This document shows, one piece after another, positions 2,449 to 11,072 of a DNA stretch of 64,000 bases (positions within the stretch are counted from its first letter, which is position 1; every line of letters begins with the position of its first letter). A program made the translations under genes and the position numbers. The notes under the pieces are model-generated. The model was given only the letters and a program-made list of their open reading frames with translations, made no database searches and was not told where the DNA came from. This DNA comes from Deltaproteobacteria bacterium (GTDB lineage: Bacteria > JAGRBM01 > JAHCIT01), in NCBI GenBank assembly GCA_026129095.1, contig JAHCIT010000011.1:1-64000 (forward strand). Reading direction: 5' to 3'.

Positions 2449-4692
2449 CTACCGGCGGGCGGATGCAGCCCGGCGCGGCGCCGCACCGTTGCGGGCAGTC
2501 TTGCGGACTCCGGCCGTTTCGTTCCCCATCACGAGCCGGATCCGGTGCCGGATGACCGGCATCTCCTGCTCGAGGGCGCGGAGCTTGTCCCGGGAGATGA
2601 CCAGAACGCGGCAGCCGCCTTCGGTCGTGGCCCGGTACCGGGCCAGTTGCACGCCAGCGATCCTCACGTTCTTGCCGAAATACCGGCCGGGGCCCAGTTC
2701 CAGCGGGCGGCCGCGCTCGTCCTTGAGCGGCTTGCCTCCCTGGCTGAGACGAACCGAGCCTTCCTGGATGATGTAGATATTCTGCGCCTTGGCGACTTCC
2801 GTCTCGCCGACGATCGTCTGGCGGGGCTTGAAGACCAGCGTTTCGGCGACGAGCGAGATCCGGTGGATCGCCGAGGCATCCAGCCCGGCGAACAGCTCCA
2901 CTTCCTTGATCGCCTTGCGGTGGGCCCAGAGCTTCATGAATGTCTGTTCGAGCCCGTTTTCCGCCACGAACTCCATGAAGAGATCGCCTGGCAGCTCGAA
3001 CACCGTCGAGGCCGACGCCGCCGTCACCGAGGCGGTGCGCTCCATCTGCTGGAGGATGGCGATTTCGCCGAAGAAGTCGCCGCGCTCCAGCTCGGCCACC
3101 CGCGTGCCGGCGACGGTCACGTCGAATGAACCCGCAAGCACGAAATAGAACGTGTCCCCGCGGGTTCCCTCACGAACGATGGTCTCCCCCTTCTGCACGT
3201 TCCGGACGGTCCCGCGGGTCAGGATGATGTCGATCCAGTAGCGGTTACGGATATCGAACAGCTTGAGCGATTCCAGAATACCAAGGACATGGAACGGGTG
3301 CACCGTATCGGCCGGAACCACCTGGAACGAATCGCCGGGCCGGGCGACAACCGAATTGGGCCCGAGTTTCCCGTCATAGGTGGACCGGTGCGTGACCACC
3401 AGCTTCTGGTCGGAACCGGCGAAATCCTTGGGATCGAGATGAATGGGCTCCCCGCCGCCATCCATCACCAGAAGATCGTACCGCTTGCCAAGGAAGCTCT
3501 TGAGCTGGTCCCGGCGGGCAGCCTCCAGGAGCCCCTTCCCGTGCATCTCGTCCAGGCCCCGGTGGTGAAGCGTGTCGCCGGAGATATAGACGCTATGCAG
3601 CTTGCCGTCCTTGTCGCGGACCGACATCTCGGCGCCGAGCGCGGGGATCGAATGGACCCCGTAGAAGAACCGGAAATCGACGCCGAAAAGCCGCACCGGC
3701 TCGTCCACCGGCACCGGCATGAAGTCCATGTAGTCGCGGATCGAACCGGGGCTCTCGCCCAGGATCGCGCCCATCTTGATGAGCAGGCATTCGAATATCT
3801 CCGGCGTGGAGATGACGAGCGGCCGGTGCTTGTCGAGCAGGAACTCCAGGAAGTTCAGGTGGTCGTCGTGGACATGGGTGACGATGATTGCCTTGACCGA
3901 CTCCTTCGAAACCCCGCGCTGCTTGAGCTGGTGGTGAGTGAATGCCGGGCAGTCCCACAGGACGGCCACGCCGGACAGCCACAGCAGATAGCAGGTCGTC
4001 GGGAAGTTCGGGTCGAACCCATTGGAGGCGCCCAGAAGGTCCACGGCCAGGATCGATGGCAACTGCGCGCTCTGGGCGATGGGCGTCGAATAGGGCGGTT
4101 CGATGGGCTGGTCGAGCGGTATCTCGACCGTTTCGATCACATCGCGGCCGTCCTCGGCGCCGAGCAGCGCGAACCGGTCGTCGCCGAGCTTTCTCACGTA
4201 GAGGGGATTGTCCTCGTCATCGATCAGCAACGCGGCGTGGGAACCCTGGAATTCGACGAAATCAATGAAATCGTCGATCTGCCGGATGGAACCGTCGGCA
4301 TGCTTGACGGCCAGATAGTCCAGATCGGCCCGGAGGTATTTCCGCACCGAAGGCGGAACCTTCCAGGCTCGCATCTCCTCGTCCGTCGGCCCCAGCAGCG
4401 TGATCCTGAGCATTTCACGGATGCGGTTGCATTGAGACCGGGTTCCGTAAATGCGCATTTTCCGGCCGCTCGCCAGCGCGCCCTGCACGAACACGAAGTG
4501 GTAAAACGGGAACTCGACCGCGACGAGCGAGGAGCCGTCCTTGTGGAAGGTGTCCGGCAGCACGATCGCCGACGGCATGGTCAGCTTTTTCTGGAGGATT
4601 ACCTTGAGAATCTCGTTCGGGCATCCGAACAAGACGGTGAGGTCACCCCTTTTGAGGTGAACACATCCCGGTGCAACATTCGTCAACTGCAT
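2449..4692 (-). CDS. metallo-beta-lactamase-fold protein with two C-terminal cyclic-nucleotide-binding domains
   Basis: The 747-residue cytoplasmic protein has three parts. About 200 N-terminal residues are unrecognised. A metallo-beta-lactamase domain follows (about 220-460) with HVHDDH near 271, a later His in GVHSIPA, Asp in SGDTLHH and a final His in VVTHRS, so the dinuclear metal site looks complete. Two cyclic-nucleotide folds come last. The first keeps a phosphate-binding cassette (FGEIAIL then ERTASV); the second (YFGKNVRIAG) is degenerate. The hydrolase could be a phosphodiesterase-like enzyme gated by a nucleotide. Start chosen at ATG 4692 behind an AGGCGGG ribosome site, rather than an in-frame codon at 4725. 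Confidence 0.8.
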   Translation of the reverse strand: MQLTNVAPGCVHLKRGDLTVLFGCPNEILKVILQKKLTMPSAIVLPDTFHKDGSSLVAVEFPFYHFVFVQGALASGRKMRIYGTRSQCNRIREMLRITLLGPTDEEMRAWKVPPSVRKYLRADLDYLAVKHADGSIRQIDDFIDFVEFQGSHAALLIDDEDNPLYVRKLGDDRFALLGAEDGRDVIETVEIPLDQPIEPPYSTPIAQSAQLPSILAVDLLGASNGFDPNFPTTCYLLWLSGVAVLWDCPAFTHHQLKQRGVSKESVKAIIVTHVHDDHLNFLEFLLDKHRPLVISTPEIFECLLIKMGAILGESPGSIRDYMDFMPVPVDEPVRLFGVDFRFFYGVHSIPALGAEMSVRDKDGKLHSVYISGDTLHHRGLDEMHGKGLLEAARRDQLKSFLGKRYDLLVMDGGGEPIHLDPKDFAGSDQKLVVTHRSTYDGKLGPNSVVARPGDSFQVVPADTVHPFHVLGILESLKLFDIRNRYWIDIILTRGTVRNVQKGETIVREGTRGDTFYFVLAGSFDVTVAGTRVAELERGDFFGEIAILQQMERTASVTAASASTVFELPGDLFMEFVAENGLEQTFMKLWAHRKAIKEVELFAGLDASAIHRISLVAETLVFKPRQTIVGETEVAKAQNIYIIQEGSVRLSQGGKPLKDERGRPLELGPGRYFGKNVRIAGVQLARYRATTEGGCRVLVISRDKLRALEQEMPVIRHRIRLVMGNETAGVRKTARNGAAPRRAASARR

Positions 4693-4816
4693 CTGTTTCC
4701 CGCCTGTTCCCGCAGCACGGCACAATCCCTGTCAGGGGCAACCGGGCCCCAGTAAGGGAAGGACAGAAGAACACCACAACCGAAACGCCCCGTCTGGAAC
4801 CACCTTCCAGACAGGC

Positions 4817-4882: not shown

Positions 4883-5884
4883 ATGCTGAAAGAACAGAAT
4901 TTTTCAGGCAATTCCAGTGCGCTAGGTCACACCGAAACCGTGCCTTGCGCCGTTGGCATAGCGATATGGAACAACCGGAATCTCCTGCCGGGCCTGAAGC
5001 AAAGCCTTTCCGCCCTAAGCACACAGCCCCGCCTTGTCCTGCTTTTCGATAACGGTAGTACCGACGATTCGGCCGGCTGGATCGCACAGAACTGGCCGGA
5101 AGCGGTTCTCCTCAAGTCGCCGGTCAATACCGGTTTTGCCGAAGCCCATAACCGGCTTATTGAGGCAGCCTTCGCCAATCCGGAGATCACCGCCTATCTC
5201 GCCCTCAATTCCGATGCCCTGCTGGACCCGGACTTCTTTAAGTCCGCCTTTCCGGCCCTCGACCCGGAAATGAAAATGGGTGCCGTTCAGCCACTGGTTC
5301 TCCATCTCGATGAGACTATGAAGCCAACGGGCCGGATTGATACGACCGGCATCGGGTTCAATGCCCGCACGGGACTTTTTATTGATCGGCACCGGGGGGA
5401 AACCCCCGGAGCGGCTCATCAGACCGCCGGTCCGGTATTCGGCCCGAGCGGCGCGGTCGCGCTTTACCACCGTGACTGGCTCGCGGCAGTGAAAGACCCG
5501 GAGCATGGTTATTTCGACCGGCGTTTTTTCGCCTACTATGAGGACGTGGATATCTCATGGCGGGCGCGACGGCTCGGATGGAGCGCGGTTTTCATACCCG
5601 GCGCAAAAGCCTATCATCAGCGTTACGGTTCCCTGGGAGCCCGGCCGGAGCAGGAGAAGCTGCTTTACCGGAACCGGCTCTGGCTCCACCTGAAAAACGA
5701 GGGCTGGGGTTCGCTGCTCGCGCCAAAGCTCGCGGGCCGCGAACTGCTCAATCTTCTCCGGGCCGCCACGACCCGGCCGTGGCTGAGGGATGTCCTCGCT
5801 GAAAAGTTCCGGACCGCCGTGGCGATCGGCCGCGGATACGATCCGAAACTGGAAAAGATCGACCCACGTGACTACCCGGCCTAA
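4883..5884 (+). CDS. family 2 glycosyltransferase, WbbL rhamnosyltransferase-like
   Basis: This 333-residue enzyme has a GT-A fold. Visible motifs are DNGSTDDS (nucleotide-sugar site), NTGFAEAHN, LNSDALLDPDF (the metal-binding Asp region), GPSGAVALYHRD and FAYYEDVDISWRARRLGW (the catalytic ED and downstream Arg). This order is typical of dTDP-rhamnose-using WbbL-type transferases, though the donor is inferred. It is the first gene of a five-gene operon; the next gene starts inside its last codons. It should act at the cytoplasmic membrane face in surface glycan assembly. Confidence 0.88.
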   Translation: MLKEQNFSGNSSALGHTETVPCAVGIAIWNNRNLLPGLKQSLSALSTQPRLVLLFDNGSTDDSAGWIAQNWPEAVLLKSPVNTGFAEAHNRLIEAAFANPEITAYLALNSDALLDPDFFKSAFPALDPEMKMGAVQPLVLHLDETMKPTGRIDTTGIGFNARTGLFIDRHRGETPGAAHQTAGPVFGPSGAVALYHRDWLAAVKDPEHGYFDRRFFAYYEDVDISWRARRLGWSAVFIPGAKAYHQRYGSLGARPEQEKLLYRNRLWLHLKNEGWGSLLAPKLAGRELLNLLRAATTRPWLRDVLAEKFRTAVAIGRGYDPKLEKIDPRDYPA

Positions 5885-6935
5885 ACCCATCCGCGTCCGG
5901 TTCCTGACCCAGACGGACGAGCAGGGTGCCAGCGCCCGGCTCCGCGTCTATTCGTACGTGAACTACCTGGCAGCCGAGGGACTCCAGATCACGGTGGACC
6001 CCGCCAACACTGAAGCCACCACGATCGGGTATGCGCGTACCGCTCTTCAGCGGATGACGGGGATCGTGGAAACCGCTGCCCTGAACGATGTCATTGTGAT
6101 CCAGCGGGATTTCGTCAACCACATGGTGCCGTGGATCGAATGGCTGTATGCCAAAAGCGGGCGGCCGCTCATTCTCGACGTGGACGACGCCATTGACCTG
6201 CGCCCGCCCGGACATCCCGAAGGATGGCGCAGCAAGCTGCTGGGAACCGACGGCAAGCTGGAAAGCCTGGCCCGTATGGCGCATACCGTCGTCGCTGGGA
6301 ACCATTATCTCGCCGGACGCATCCGGGAGTGGAACCCAAATGTGCAGGTGATCCCCACCTGCCTCGATCTTTCCGCCTGGCCCCGCCCTGCCCCGCGGCG
6401 GCTCCCTGCCGGACGGCCCATCGTCATCGGCTGGATCGGCTCGCCCCTCACGACGTTTTACCTGGGACTCGTCAAGGAAGCCCTGCGGGGGATCGCCGCC
6501 CGGCGGCAGATCGTTTTCCGCACGGTCGGAGCCACGGCCCTCAGCTGGGAGGGGGTGCCGCTGGAACAGCGTATCTGGCGCGCCGAGACCGAACTTGCCG
6601 AGATCGAACAGTTCGACATCGGCATCATGCCGCTCACCGACGACGAATGGAGCCGGGGCAAGTGCGGCACCAAGATCATCCAGTATTTTGCCGCTGCCGT
6701 TCCGGTCGTCGCCTCTCCGGTAGGCATGAACGTGGACGCGCTCGACGGCGGAAAGGCGGGGCTCCTTGCATCGACCACCCGGGAGTGGACCGAGGCATTC
6801 GACCGCCTGCTTGGCGATCCGGGCCTTTACACGCAGCTTTCCGTGGCAGGGCGCGACCGGGCAGAGACGCAATACGACCTGCGCCGGTATGTGCCCCTCT
6901 GGTCGGAGATCATCCACAAGGCGGCGGAACGATGA
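5868..6935 (+). CDS. GT4-type glycosyltransferase
   Basis: The 355-residue protein has a GT-B fold. A C-terminal Rossmann half includes IGWIGSP, then the acceptor/donor region MPLTDDEWSRGKCGTKIIQYFAAAVPVVASPVG, written here as MPLTDDEWSRGK followed by CGTKIIQYFA and VPVVASPVG. A DVDDAIDL acidic motif lies mid-protein. The likely GTG start at 5868 overlaps the previous gene by 17 bases, and the stop shares ATGA with the next start. It probably adds a sugar in the same glycan pathway. Donor and acceptor are unknown. Confidence 0.83.
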   Translation: MTTRPKPIRVRFLTQTDEQGASARLRVYSYVNYLAAEGLQITVDPANTEATTIGYARTALQRMTGIVETAALNDVIVIQRDFVNHMVPWIEWLYAKSGRPLILDVDDAIDLRPPGHPEGWRSKLLGTDGKLESLARMAHTVVAGNHYLAGRIREWNPNVQVIPTCLDLSAWPRPAPRRLPAGRPIVIGWIGSPLTTFYLGLVKEALRGIAARRQIVFRTVGATALSWEGVPLEQRIWRAETELAEIEQFDIGIMPLTDDEWSRGKCGTKIIQYFAAAVPVVASPVGMNVDALDGGKAGLLASTTREWTEAFDRLLGDPGLYTQLSVAGRDRAETQYDLRRYVPLWSEIIHKAAER

Positions 6936-8026
6936 CCGGCAGCCAGCGACCGCGTGTGCTCGTGCTGCTCAAGACGCTGGGTATCGGTGGCGCGGAGACC
7001 CTCGTCCTGAACAGTTCCCGCCTTTGGGACCGGTCGCAGTTCGACTACCGGTTGGGCTATCTGGGGAAACCGGCCGACCTGGAACCGGAGTTCCGGTCCG
7101 GCGGATTTGAACCGGTCCGGTTCGCTCCTTCCGGCCATGCGAACGACCCTTTCAGCCTGTGGGAGCTTTTCCGCTGGATTCGCCGAGAGCAGATCACGCT
7201 GATCCACGCCCATCTTCCGGTGCCCTCCCTGTGGGCCGTTCTTGCCGCCAGGGGAACGGGCACGAAGGTCGTCGCCACGAACCATTCCCAGCCGGAGTCG
7301 ATGCGCCCTCTCACCGCACGGATCGCCCGGCTCGCCTGGCCGAGGGCGGATCTCGTCATCGCCGTGGGATCATCGCTGGCGGCCGACAGCCGGACCGCAC
7401 GGCGAACCGAGCTCGTGAACAACGGCGTCGAACTGGATCGCTTCGTCTCCGCCCGGCCCGCCGCTCTGGATGGCATCCCGCCTGACGCCACGGTGGTTCT
7501 GGTGCTCGGGAGCCTGATCGAACTCAAGCGGCCGCTGGAAACCCTGAACGTGTTTGAGCGGGCGGTCGAAAAGGCCGGTTCTTCAGCCAACGCGCATCTT
7601 GTATTTGCGGGCGGCGGCGAACTGGCCGCTTCCCTTGCCGCCGCCCGTGACGCCTCTCCACATGCGAAGCGCATCCATCTCCTCGGCCTGCGGCGCGATA
7701 TCCCGGCCCTATGCGCACGGGCGGACATTGTGCTTCTCCTGAGCCGAACCGAAGGGCTCCCCATGGCGCTGCTCGAAGGCGGCGCGGGAGGGTGCTCGCT
7801 CATCGCCACACGGATTGCCTCCGTAGGAACTCTCGTCCGGGATGGCGAGAACGGCTTTCTCGTGACAGACGATCTGGAAGCGGCTGGTGCTCTCTCCAGA
7901 CTGCTCGCCGATCCTGCGCTCCGGAAAAAGATGGGAGCCGCCTCCCGCGAGACAGTCGCCCGGGAGTTCAACCTGCAGTCCAATGTCCGCCGGATCGAGC
8001 AGCTTTACCGCGAGGTACTCGCCTGA
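6932..8026 (+). CDS. GT4-type glycosyltransferase
   Basis: The 364-residue GT-B enzyme opens with the classic N-terminal sequence LLKTLGIGGAETLVLN, where the GGAE loop contacts the acceptor. The C-terminal half has VLGSLIELKRP, FAGGGELAASL, and the donor-binding LLLSRTEGLPMALLEGGAGG with the usual E-x7-E pattern. The in-frame ORF extends far upstream, but the ATG at 6932 overlapping the prior stop (ATGA) and the N-terminal motif fix the start. The downstream asparagine synthase ATG shares one base with this stop. Confidence 0.88.
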   Translation: MTGSQRPRVLVLLKTLGIGGAETLVLNSSRLWDRSQFDYRLGYLGKPADLEPEFRSGGFEPVRFAPSGHANDPFSLWELFRWIRREQITLIHAHLPVPSLWAVLAARGTGTKVVATNHSQPESMRPLTARIARLAWPRADLVIAVGSSLAADSRTARRTELVNNGVELDRFVSARPAALDGIPPDATVVLVLGSLIELKRPLETLNVFERAVEKAGSSANAHLVFAGGGELAASLAAARDASPHAKRIHLLGLRRDIPALCARADIVLLLSRTEGLPMALLEGGAGGCSLIATRIASVGTLVRDGENGFLVTDDLEAAGALSRLLADPALRKKMGAASRETVAREFNLQSNVRRIEQLYREVLA

Positions 8027-9891
8027 TGTGTGGCATCGCCGGCATGTTCGTGCCCGGTGCGGATTCCGCCGAACTCCAGCGGCGGGTCCGGGCGGCGGCC
8101 AGCCGCATCGCCCACCGGGGGCCGGACGACGAGGGCTACTACGCGCAGGAGGGGCTGGCACTTGGCCACCGCCGGCTGGTCGTGATCGACCGCACGGGCG
8201 GCGCGCAGCCGTTTACGGATTCCGGGGGCCGTGTCACTGCCGCCTACAACGGTGAAATCTACAACCACCGTGAACTCCGGCAGGAACTCGCCCCCGAGGG
8301 GGAGACCTTCACGACCCGCTCGGATACAGAGGTGCTGGTTCGAGCATTCGCACGGCGGGGCACGGATGCCTTCATCAAGCTGGATGGCATGTTCGCCGCC
8401 GCCCTGTGGAGGCACGCAGACCGGTCGCTGTTCCTGGTGCGCGATCCCGCAGGCGAGAAACCCCTGTTTTTCAGCGAGAACCCGCTTGGCCCTGGCAGTC
8501 CCGGCATTGCGTTCGCCAGCGAGGTTTACTCCCTGCTGGCACTCCTGCCCGAAGTGCCGCCGGTGGACCCGGCGGGCTTATGGTCATACCTGACCCTCGG
8601 CTATGCACGGGAACCGCGAATCCTCAAGGGTATCGGGCTGGTTCCGCCCGGAAGCTGGCTCCGCATCGAAAACGGCCGGATCACGGATCAGCAGCGGTAC
8701 TGGCGGCCCCGGTTCACCCCCGTGCATCTGCCGGAACGGGAAGCCCTACCCTGCATCCGCCGGGCAATGAAGCTCGCGGTCCAGTCCCGACTTGAAGCCG
8801 ATGTGCCGCTCGGCGCGTTCCTCTCCGGCGGAATTGATTCTTCCATCATCGTCTACGAGATGCGGCAGGCCGGGGTGGACGAGATCAACACCTTCTCGAT
8901 CGGCTTCCGGGAGGGCGAAGGTTACGACGAAAGCCCGTGGGCCCGCGAGATCGGACGGCTGCTCAACACCCATCATCATGAGCAGATGTTTGGCGTGAGC
9001 GAGGCCATCGTCGAATCGACCCTGAACGCCCTCGATGAACCGATGGCCGATTCATCGGCCATCGCCACCTGGTCGCTGGCCGAACATGCCCGCCGCCATA
9101 TCACCGTGGCACTGGGCGGCGACGGCGGGGACGAGGTGTTCTGCGGCTACGAGCGGTTCGCCGGTATCCTGCTGACCGAGCGGATACCCCTTGCCGTCCG
9201 GCGGCTGCTCTCGCCACTTGCCCCGCTCGTGCCGGACACGGGCGGCTACGGGAACCGCGGCGACCGGCTGCGGCGGCTTCTGCGGGATGGAATCCATCCG
9301 GCCGCCGAGCGGCTCCTCAGGTGGCAGGCGATCCAGCCCCCGGAACAGGCGCGCCGGTACATGACGGAACCGGCCGGCTTCGCTTCCCTCTTTCCCTGGC
9401 CGGCAGGTTCCACTCCAGGTTCAGGCTCCGTCATCCATGACATGCTGGCGGCGAACTTCGAGAGCTATATGCCTGACGACCTGCTGGTGAAGACCGACCG
9501 GATGACCATGAACCACGGGCTCGAACTCCGCTCGCCGTTTCTGGCGAAGGACGTGATCGAAACCGGCCTGACCCTTCCGGCCGATGGACTCGCCAGGGGA
9601 CTCGCGCTCAAGCGGTGGCTGAAGAAGGCCTACGAGGGGTTTCTCCCGAATCCGGTCCTGCACCGCCGGAAGCACGGCTTCGGAGTGCCTATCCACAAAT
9701 GGCTGCGGGGTGTCCTGCAGGAGTGGGCCGCCGCCCGCCTGTTCGACCGGCAGAGCCCGCTCCATGACCATGTCGATTCCGATGCTGTGCGGCTCCTGTG
9801 GAAGACCCACATGGACGGCCGGGACGGCGGCCAGCAGGTGATCTGGGCGCTGATCGTGCTGGACCACTGGCTCCGGAGAATCCGGTCATGA
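8026..9891 (+). CDS. asnB: asparagine synthase (glutamine-hydrolysing), AsnB type
   Basis: The 621-residue protein starts MCGIAGMF, leaving Cys2 as the N-terminal nucleophile of a class II glutaminase domain (about 2-210). The synthetase domain holds the pyrophosphate loop LSGGIDSS near 266-273. The enzyme transfers ammonia to an ATP-activated carboxylate. Its place between glycosyltransferases, with one- and four-base overlaps, suggests it amidates a sugar carboxylate in the glycan, as AsnB-like enzymes in polysaccharide clusters are thought to do. Ordinary asparagine synthesis remains possible. The ATG is fixed by the Cys2 rule. Confidence 0.92.
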   Translation: MCGIAGMFVPGADSAELQRRVRAAASRIAHRGPDDEGYYAQEGLALGHRRLVVIDRTGGAQPFTDSGGRVTAAYNGEIYNHRELRQELAPEGETFTTRSDTEVLVRAFARRGTDAFIKLDGMFAAALWRHADRSLFLVRDPAGEKPLFFSENPLGPGSPGIAFASEVYSLLALLPEVPPVDPAGLWSYLTLGYAREPRILKGIGLVPPGSWLRIENGRITDQQRYWRPRFTPVHLPEREALPCIRRAMKLAVQSRLEADVPLGAFLSGGIDSSIIVYEMRQAGVDEINTFSIGFREGEGYDESPWAREIGRLLNTHHHEQMFGVSEAIVESTLNALDEPMADSSAIATWSLAEHARRHITVALGGDGGDEVFCGYERFAGILLTERIPLAVRRLLSPLAPLVPDTGGYGNRGDRLRRLLRDGIHPAAERLLRWQAIQPPEQARRYMTEPAGFASLFPWPAGSTPGSGSVIHDMLAANFESYMPDDLLVKTDRMTMNHGLELRSPFLAKDVIETGLTLPADGLARGLALKRWLKKAYEGFLPNPVLHRRKHGFGVPIHKWLRGVLQEWAAARLFDRQSPLHDHVDSDAVRLLWKTHMDGRDGGQQVIWALIVLDHWLRRIRS

Positions 9892-11072
9892 GCCGTCCGC
9901 TCAGGATCGTCAGGATCATCGACCGCATGAACGTGGGTGGCCCGGCCATTCATGTCACCTTGACCAGCGAGCGGCTGAACGACGGACGCCGGTTCGAGAC
10001 ACTGCTCGTCCGCGGCGAGATCGGCCCTGACGAAGGTGACATGAGCTATCTCCTGAAGGGCCGGAACATAAAGGAAAAATACCTGCCGTCGCTGGGCAGG
10101 AGCATTTCTCCCTGGAACGACCTTTTGGTCTTTTTCCAGCTCGTCGGCCTGCTCCGCCGCGAGCGGCCGGACGTGGTGCATACGCACAAGTCGAAGGCGG
10201 GCCTTCTGGGACGGATCGCGGCCTTTATCGCCCGTGTGCCGGTGAGAATCCACACGTTCCACGGTCATGTGTTTCACGGGTATTTCTCCCCGCTGGTCTC
10301 TCGCCTCGTGGTCTGGACGGAAAAGCTGCTTGCCCTGATTACCCACCGGATTTTTGTCGTCGGCGACCAGCTCCGGATCGAGATGACCGAAAAATACCGG
10401 CTGTGTGATCCCGCAAAAATCCTCGTCGTGCCGCTGGGACTGGACCTCGGGCCTTTCGTCGAGGCGTCGGGTGAAGGCCGGGAAAAGGCCCGGCTCGCCC
10501 TGCGGCAGTCGCTCGGCGTCGATTCAGGGAAAAAGCTCGTCGGCATCGTCGGGCGGCTGACGCGGATCAAGAACCACGCGATGTTTCTCGAAGCGGCCCG
10601 GATGATTGCCGGGAAACGCGCCGATACCGATTTCGTTATCGTGGGCGGCGGGGAACTGGAAACGGAGCTTCAGGAACTGGCACGGGCGTCGGGCATTCCG
10701 GACCAGGTTCACTTCATGGGATTCCAGACGAGAACCGCACCGATCTATGCCGGCCTCGATATCATCGCACTCACATCGGACAACGAGGGAACACCGGTGA
10801 CCCTGATCGAGGCCGGGGCAGCGGGCCTGCCCGCGGTTTCGACCGATGTGGGCGCAGTGCAGACCGTGGTGATCGGGGGCGAGACCGGCTTCATGGTGCC
10901 GAAGGGCGATGCCGCCGCACTCGCGGAGAAGATAATGATGCTGCTCGACGATACAGAACTTCGCATGCGGCTCGGTGCGGCCGCCCGCCGTCATGTGACA
11001 TCTAATTTTTCCATCGAACGGCTGTGCGACACGCTGGGGCGTTTGTACGAAGAACTGGCCGCAAGGAAGTAA
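9888..11072 (+). CDS. GT4-type glycosyltransferase
   Basis: The 394-residue GT-B enzyme begins with RIIDRMNVGGPAIHV (acceptor loop) and has DVVHTHKSKAGLLGR. Its donor half holds IVGRLTRIKNH, FVIVGGGELE and LTSDNEGTPVTLIEAGAAGLP, with the E-x7-E pair. It closes the operon: the ATG overlaps the asnB stop by four bases. The gene ends one base before the convergent tyrS stop, leaving no room for a separate terminator. The specific linkage formed cannot be told. Confidence 0.88.
   Translation: MSRPLRIVRIIDRMNVGGPAIHVTLTSERLNDGRRFETLLVRGEIGPDEGDMSYLLKGRNIKEKYLPSLGRSISPWNDLLVFFQLVGLLRRERPDVVHTHKSKAGLLGRIAAFIARVPVRIHTFHGHVFHGYFSPLVSRLVVWTEKLLALITHRIFVVGDQLRIEMTEKYRLCDPAKILVVPLGLDLGPFVEASGEGREKARLALRQSLGVDSGKKLVGIVGRLTRIKNHAMFLEAARMIAGKRADTDFVIVGGGELETELQELARASGIPDQVHFMGFQTRTAPIYAGLDIIALTSDNEGTPVTLIEAGAAGLPAVSTDVGAVQTVVIGGETGFMVPKGDAAALAEKIMMLLDDTELRMRLGAAARRHVTSNFSIERLCDTLGRLYEELAARK

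Follow-up and report, generated by a model that had tools for sequence, protein, structure and literature searches.

A bacterial metallo-β-lactamase protein with a degenerate N-terminal copy and two cyclic-nucleotide-binding domains, probably a phosphodiesterase for the nucleotides that it senses

Domain architecture of the 747-residue protein

The window, by which we mean the whole 64,000-nucleotide stretch of DNA analysed here (positions 1 to 64,000 of contig JAHCIT010000011.1, assembly GCA_026129095.1, Deltaproteobacteria bacterium), encodes a protein composed of a dead metallo-β-lactamase (MBL) copy, a live MBL domain and two cyclic-nucleotide-binding (CNB) domains (Table 1). An alternative TTG start at 4725 would lengthen the open reading frame to 2449-4725 on the minus strand; Met occupies the corresponding start position in a relative from FCPU426 (L038) and in one from the same order (L009). 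In Pfam, Lactamase_B is matched over residues 230-385 (E 1.1e-9, 39 bits against a cut-off of 22.7), and cNMP_binding (PF00027) in two stretches, the better at 497-579 (E 6.1e-28), with a whole-protein score of 97.1 bits against a cut-off of 27.5. The layout is far beyond what chance would give, because a relative from the same order (genome G001) is 54% identical over residues 2-741 and because the full-length AlphaFold2 model is confident (mean pLDDT 88.6, pTM 0.90). The full layout occurs in one copy in this genome, where seven further matches span the CNB region only.

Table 1. Coordinates of the gene and of the features of its product within the window
Feature	Positions	Strand	Basis
Whole gene, 747 aa plus stop	2449..4692	minus	ATG start
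Residues 1-205, degenerate MBL (pseudo-MBL) domain, no metal-binding motif	4078..4692	minus	AF2 model, Foldseek, VIA
E60, candidate counterpart of the Apyc1 opposing-protomer catalytic Glu	4513..4515	minus	Conservation; secondary-structure order only
Residues 209-461, catalytic MBL domain	3310..4068	minus	Pfam, PDB profile search, VIA fold match
H273-V-H275-D-D277-H278, metal-binding motif	3859..3876	minus	Invariant in 50/50
Residues 463-592, CNB-1, canonical cassette	2917..3306	minus	PF00027, VIA fold match
Residues 540-556, phosphate-binding cassette FFGEIAILQQMERTASV (E543, R552)	3025..3075	minus	Alignment
Residues 600-720, CNB-2 fold, degenerate cassette (K674, no Arg)	2533..2895	minus	PF00027 stretches, model, alignment

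Beyond the histidine motif, the metal ligands of the catalytic domain are H347, D373 and H435, and none of the seven (H273, H275, D277, H278, H347, D373 and H435) varies across the 50 sequences aligned, nor do H418 and K306. This alignment (A2) joins the window protein to 49 of the 80 loci analysed; 31 loci, L092 and L097 among them, were left out as truncated open reading frames, as near-duplicates or on account of a size limit, and the start was placed near the match, not at the first start codon, in five rows (L040, L048, L055, L056, L058). H435 is not invariant in a six-row alignment (A1), because L010 aligns differently there. A PDB profile search with the catalytic domain returned Apyc1 at the top (7u2s, E 2.7e-13; 7t28, 5.8e-12; 7u2r, 3.4e-11), followed by BA1088 (1.8e-9), YhfI (1.9e-9), ELAC1 (7.8e-9) and RNase Z (6.5e-8). 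Fold comparison with VIA gave a similar order, with Apyc1 7u2r at Z 24.4 (rmsd 2.4 over 217 residues), YhfI at 22.7, RNase Z at 21.6-21.7, PhnP-family and AMP/GMP-binding MBL proteins at about 21 and yeast PDE1 at 19.5. The live domain is therefore closest to Apyc1 and YhfI by both profile and fold, and the gap in Z to RNase Z is modest. Curated family models were less decisive: PF23023 (Apyc1) scored 18.6 bits, under its Pfam cut-off of 50, while neither PF02112 (typical class II phosphodiesterase) nor NF041851 (the NCBIfam cyclic nucleotide-degrading phosphodiesterase) matched the protein at E up to 1. The same-order relative L009 does match NF041851 (E 5.2e-8), below that model's cut-off.

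The N-terminal region of about 205 residues is predicted to be a degenerate MBL fold. When residues 3-208 were modelled alone (AF2 pLDDT 91.2), the best Foldseek matches in the PDB were Apyc1 7u2r (E 4.1e-5), ELAC1 (4.6e-5) and RNase Z (3.6e-4), and VIA aligned the model with RNase Z 1y44 (Z 13.9, rmsd 4.9, 155 residues) and with ELAC2 9ey2 (Z 11.9, rmsd 3.0, 147 residues). In the full model, residues 1-460 superposed on residues 58-756 of ELAC2 8rr3 (Z 19.8, rmsd 4.1, 365 residues). It is because of these superpositions on RNase Z and ELAC2 that we assign both a degenerate MBL fold and the arrangement of the long form of tRNase Z. The fold match of the N-terminus comes from structure, since sequence and profile comparisons show none: hhalign found no homology between the N-terminal and catalytic profiles (probability 1.3), and the N-terminal profile had no match among PDB sequences, the best hit (a GABA receptor, E 0.089) being taken as chance. 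Positions 47-52, where the dead domain would be expected to carry a metal motif, are unconserved. Elsewhere in the N-terminus, G9, K30 and F61 are invariant in 50/50 aligned sequences, and position 60, where the matching helix begins, is Glu in 49 and Asp in one.

CNB-1 carries a cassette of the FGE...R type, with E543 and R552 both present, and superposes on the cGMP-binding PKG domain 4qx5 (VIA Z 18.6, rmsd 1.8, 124 residues). In CNB-2, K674 stands at the position of the cassette Glu and the cassette Arg is absent. R552-T553 resembles the PKG-type cassette; naming cAMP or cGMP as the ligand from these two residues was nevertheless rejected, because position 553 varies too much. A role in Pycsar defence was likewise considered, as PADLOC reported matches to Pycsar effectors; these are confined to the CNB domains (PycTIR, E 7.4e-18), and the role was set aside because the 747-residue protein contains no TIR or other effector domain. 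A plasmid search gave no match. An earlier note on this DNA, made from the letters alone, had described a complete dinuclear metal site followed by one well-preserved and one degenerate CNB fold, a description that the conserved ligands and the two cassettes bear out. It had also left some 200 N-terminal residues without assignment, which still holds for Pfam, where residues 1-210 have no match, and no longer for structure prediction, which places them as a degenerate MBL.

Relatives, neighbours and co-occurring cyclases

The family is present in many phyla, and its known spread is a lower bound. Five of the 60 genomes searched hold a relative that reaches past the CNB region into the MBL part (G001, G049, G030, G018 and G024), and a scan of GTDB genomes confirmed at least 108 relatives, of which 80 loci were analysed. 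Among the matches listed, relatives come from Spirochaetes, Leptospiraceae, Myxococcales, Magnetococcales and other proteobacteria, as well as Riflebacteria/Ozemobacter, Planctomycetota and FCPU426. Lactamase_B and cNMP_binding are both matched in 50/50 sequences of A2, and 15 of these additionally carry a hemerythrin domain. Ten relatives were scanned singly: six have an N-terminal receiver domain (L087, L095, L099, L102, L103, L111), two a family 3 solute-binding domain (L094, L098), and two have no CNB match. In the latter (L092:7896-9275 and L097:7980-9410) the chain consists of pseudo-MBL and MBL and ends there, with the metal ligands kept; L092 retains all seven together with H418 and differs at positions 9, 60, 306 and 413, and L097 retains 14 of the 14 positions checked.

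A family tree with midpoint root separates two clades, one of 28 sequences that includes the window protein (clade I) and one of 22 (clade II). R552 is found in 28/28 and E543 in 27/28 members of clade I, against 1/22 and 16/22 in clade II, in which the CNB fold is kept (e.g. L115, L101, L084). Because retention of these two residues differs between the clades, so does our judgement of sensing: judged from the alignment, cyclic-nucleotide sensing by CNB-1 is well founded in clade I and doubtful in clade II, whose CNB-1 may have a different ligand or none. With the CNB-1 Arg missing from 21/22 members of clade II, we do not extend nucleotide sensing to the whole family.

The gene is divergent from glycosyltransferase and asparagine-synthase-like genes (4883-11072, named by eye). 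Its same-order relative likewise points away from a pair of glycosyltransferase genes, which share 54-55% identity with their counterparts in the window, so that the position of the gene is conserved between the two genomes. The ABC transporter genes downstream (405-1190 and 1187-2110) are absent beside the same-order relative, which lies on a 10 kb contig. Over the 80 loci among the matches listed there is no conserved neighbour; the commonest neighbour cluster is response-regulator-like (18 loci), and generic ABC ATPases adjoin seven loci and the window gene. In the three Brevinematales loci (neighbours L059:4458-6080, L060:6700-7914 and L069:6700-7914) a gene for 405-541 residues immediately precedes the family gene, with an overlap of a few bases at two loci; two of these genes were scanned and both encode GAF plus HD. 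Elsewhere in the window's own genome (L126:657-2136, on contig C4 near 12490), a gene for a CRP-like CNB regulator is followed by an overlapping MBL gene whose product is class II phosphodiesterase-like (PF02112, 55.9 bits), so that the same two functions stand there as separate neighbours.

Class III cyclases accompany the family almost without exception. This genome encodes five, and all five have Lys before the GD motif, a residue that marks adenylyl cyclases. Among the matches listed, 77 of 78 other family-carrying genomes (38/39 and 39/39) encode class III cyclases, as do 36 of 55 comparison genomes that lack the family (Fisher p 8e-8 against carriers, uncorrected for kinship). The count covers 78 of the 80 loci, L073 and L103 being omitted because each is the second locus of an isolate already counted, and two of the 78 genomes are apparently G018 and G030 of the 60-genome set. 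The sole genome without a cyclase, G096, is the Saganbacteria genome that harbors the CNB-less L092; the genome of the CNB-less L097 has four class III cyclases.

Proposed function and its alternatives

We propose, with a probability of roughly 0.6, that the protein is a soluble cAMP/cGMP phosphodiesterase (class II, MBL fold) that is switched by nucleotide binding to CNB-1. The di-metal site of residues 209-461 would hydrolyse cAMP and/or cGMP to the 5′-monophosphate, while the dead N-terminal MBL would pack on the live one like the second protomer of dimeric class II phosphodiesterases or the corresponding half of the tRNase Z long form. CNB-1, lying C-terminal of the MBL domain, would bind a cyclic nucleotide via E543 and R552 and switch the catalytic domain, most simply by feedback activation, and CNB-2 would serve as a structural relay lacking a normal ligand site. 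The earlier note had suggested a hydrolase set by cAMP, cGMP or another nucleotide, and this remains the best-supported reading, the live domain being nearest to cyclic-mononucleotide phosphodiesterases, with the refinement that only CNB-1 keeps its cassette.

The part assigned to the dead domain draws on Apyc1 and YhfI, which are dimers that hydrolyse cyclic mononucleotides; for Apyc1, the opposing protomer has to contribute E74 and Y112 (PMC9117128). The putative Apyc1 Glu lies five residues past the last His of HxHxDH in two Paenibacillus Apyc1 chains and in Bsp38 Apyc1; at the corresponding place in the family, position 283, only the window protein among the 50 aligned has Glu. E60 of the dead domain may instead be donated to the live site, and its correspondence to Apyc1 E74 we infer from the order of secondary structure only. 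Such a pseudo-dimer could spare the live domain from having to carry Glu at position 283 itself. What would be new here is this built-in second protomer, a dead MBL that may supply the catalytic glutamate.

Several observations weigh against a phosphodiesterase. The MBL superfamily is promiscuous, and the best matches are only narrowly ahead of RNase Z and PhnP-type folds; no cut-off of a curated phosphodiesterase family is reached (PF23023, PF02112, NF041851); a genome with no RNase Z over the cut-off makes a nuclease role conceivable; and the same genome already encodes a typical class II phosphodiesterase, the PF02112 match noted above. Among the alternatives, an MBL hydrolase of another substrate (a cyclic dinucleotide, a cyclic phosphate or a phosphodiester metabolite), for which cAMP or cGMP is the regulator only, is unlikely in our estimation and fares best. 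It would accommodate the Z of about 21 for PhnP-family and AMP/GMP-binding MBL proteins and the placement of the gene directly after, or overlapping, the upstream gene in 3/3 Brevinematales loci (GAF plus HD in the two scanned), but both profile and fold match cyclic-mononucleotide phosphodiesterases best, and the Dictyostelium enzymes of the same layout hydrolyse cAMP/cGMP (PMC11988041).

The main structural rival is a tRNase Z-type nuclease or RNA-processing enzyme gated by a cyclic nucleotide, which we hold to be quite improbable. The superposition of pseudo-MBL and live MBL on ELAC2 over residues 1-460 is what such an enzyme would show, and the MBL part gives low-scoring matches to RNase Z models; the window protein, however, reaches 29.6 bits against a TIGR02651 (RNase Z) cut-off of 292.95, and Apyc1 and YhfI outscore RNase Z in profile and in fold. 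In this genome (96.65% complete) nothing passes the TIGR02651 cut-off for RNase Z, the best score being 33.7 bits, and only five of 35 other family genomes pass, a sixth scoring 286.6 bits. The missing RNase Z is weak evidence because five of 14 control genomes miss the same cut-off, and the five passing genomes hold the family alongside an over-cut-off RNase Z. In addition, a tRNA enzyme would not be expected to occur almost always together with cyclases. Least probable is a sensor or scaffold with residual catalysis whose CNB region responds to some other input than a cyclic nucleotide, as many bacterial CRP/FNR-type folds do; the degenerate CNB-2, the loss of the CNB-1 Arg in clade II and the response-regulator, hemerythrin and solute-binding fusions, which show other inputs, would suit it, but the metal ligands are invariant and clade I, including the window protein, keeps E543 and R552 almost throughout.

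Relation to characterised enzymes

The earlier note knew of no characterised protein of this layout, a statement that has to be amended: in Dictyostelium, GbpA and GbpB combine an MBL catalytic domain with two CNB domains that follow it in the same chain, as the window protein does, and they are described as intracellular class IIb phosphodiesterases that hydrolyse cAMP/cGMP and are stimulated by cyclic nucleotides, whose binding activates them (PMC11988041). They are eukaryotic, whereas the window protein is bacterial, and we liken the two by layout, not by sequence. In the open-access literature searched, as far as its accessible text goes, no description was found of bacterial MBL-CNB-CNB proteins, nor of bacterial phosphodiesterases switched by cAMP/cGMP through CNB domains of their own. 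The mycobacterial Rv1339, which is related to Apyc1 and YhfI, has been classed as an atypical class II MBL phosphodiesterase, and its group extends over several phyla (PMC9293780).

Other known systems each share one portion of the architecture. Apyc1 and YhfI resemble the catalytic domain most closely in profile and fold and possess the HxHxDH site, but they lack CNB domains and form homodimers with one MBL domain per chain, whereas in the window protein a dead copy fused to the live domain apparently takes the partner's place. The long form of tRNase Z (ELAC2) likewise joins a dead N-terminal to a live C-terminal MBL, in what the model predicts to be the same spatial arrangement, but is a tRNA 3′-processing endonuclease that has no CNB domains, and the window protein falls under the RNase Z cut-off. 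The regulatory subunit of PKA and PKG share the tandem CNB domains and are the best phmmer and Foldseek matches for residues about 463-730; unlike theirs, the CNB pair of the window protein is joined to a hydrolase and only its first member keeps the cassette. The combination of MBL and two CNB domains is known from a eukaryote, and the bacterial form adds the predicted dead MBL, a likely built-in partner.

More tentatively, these proteins could make up a family of cyclic-nucleotide phosphodiesterases, widespread in bacteria, that are pseudo-dimers within one chain and in which a fused dead MBL supplies the trans-acting E60 and a PKA-like tandem CNB module provides feedback; such a family would be a signalling counterpart of the tRNase Z long form and the bacterial counterpart, perhaps the ancestor, of GbpA/GbpB. 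In the organism studied here, the gene probably encodes a bacterial enzyme that destroys cAMP or cGMP upon sensing them; to date, such a design has been studied in a slime mould. If confirmed, that feedback design would be backed by a large bacterial pool comprising spirochaetes, myxobacteria, magnetotactic bacteria and candidate phyla. The catalytic unit of two domains would then offer a direct test of how a dead duplicate comes to replace a dimer partner.
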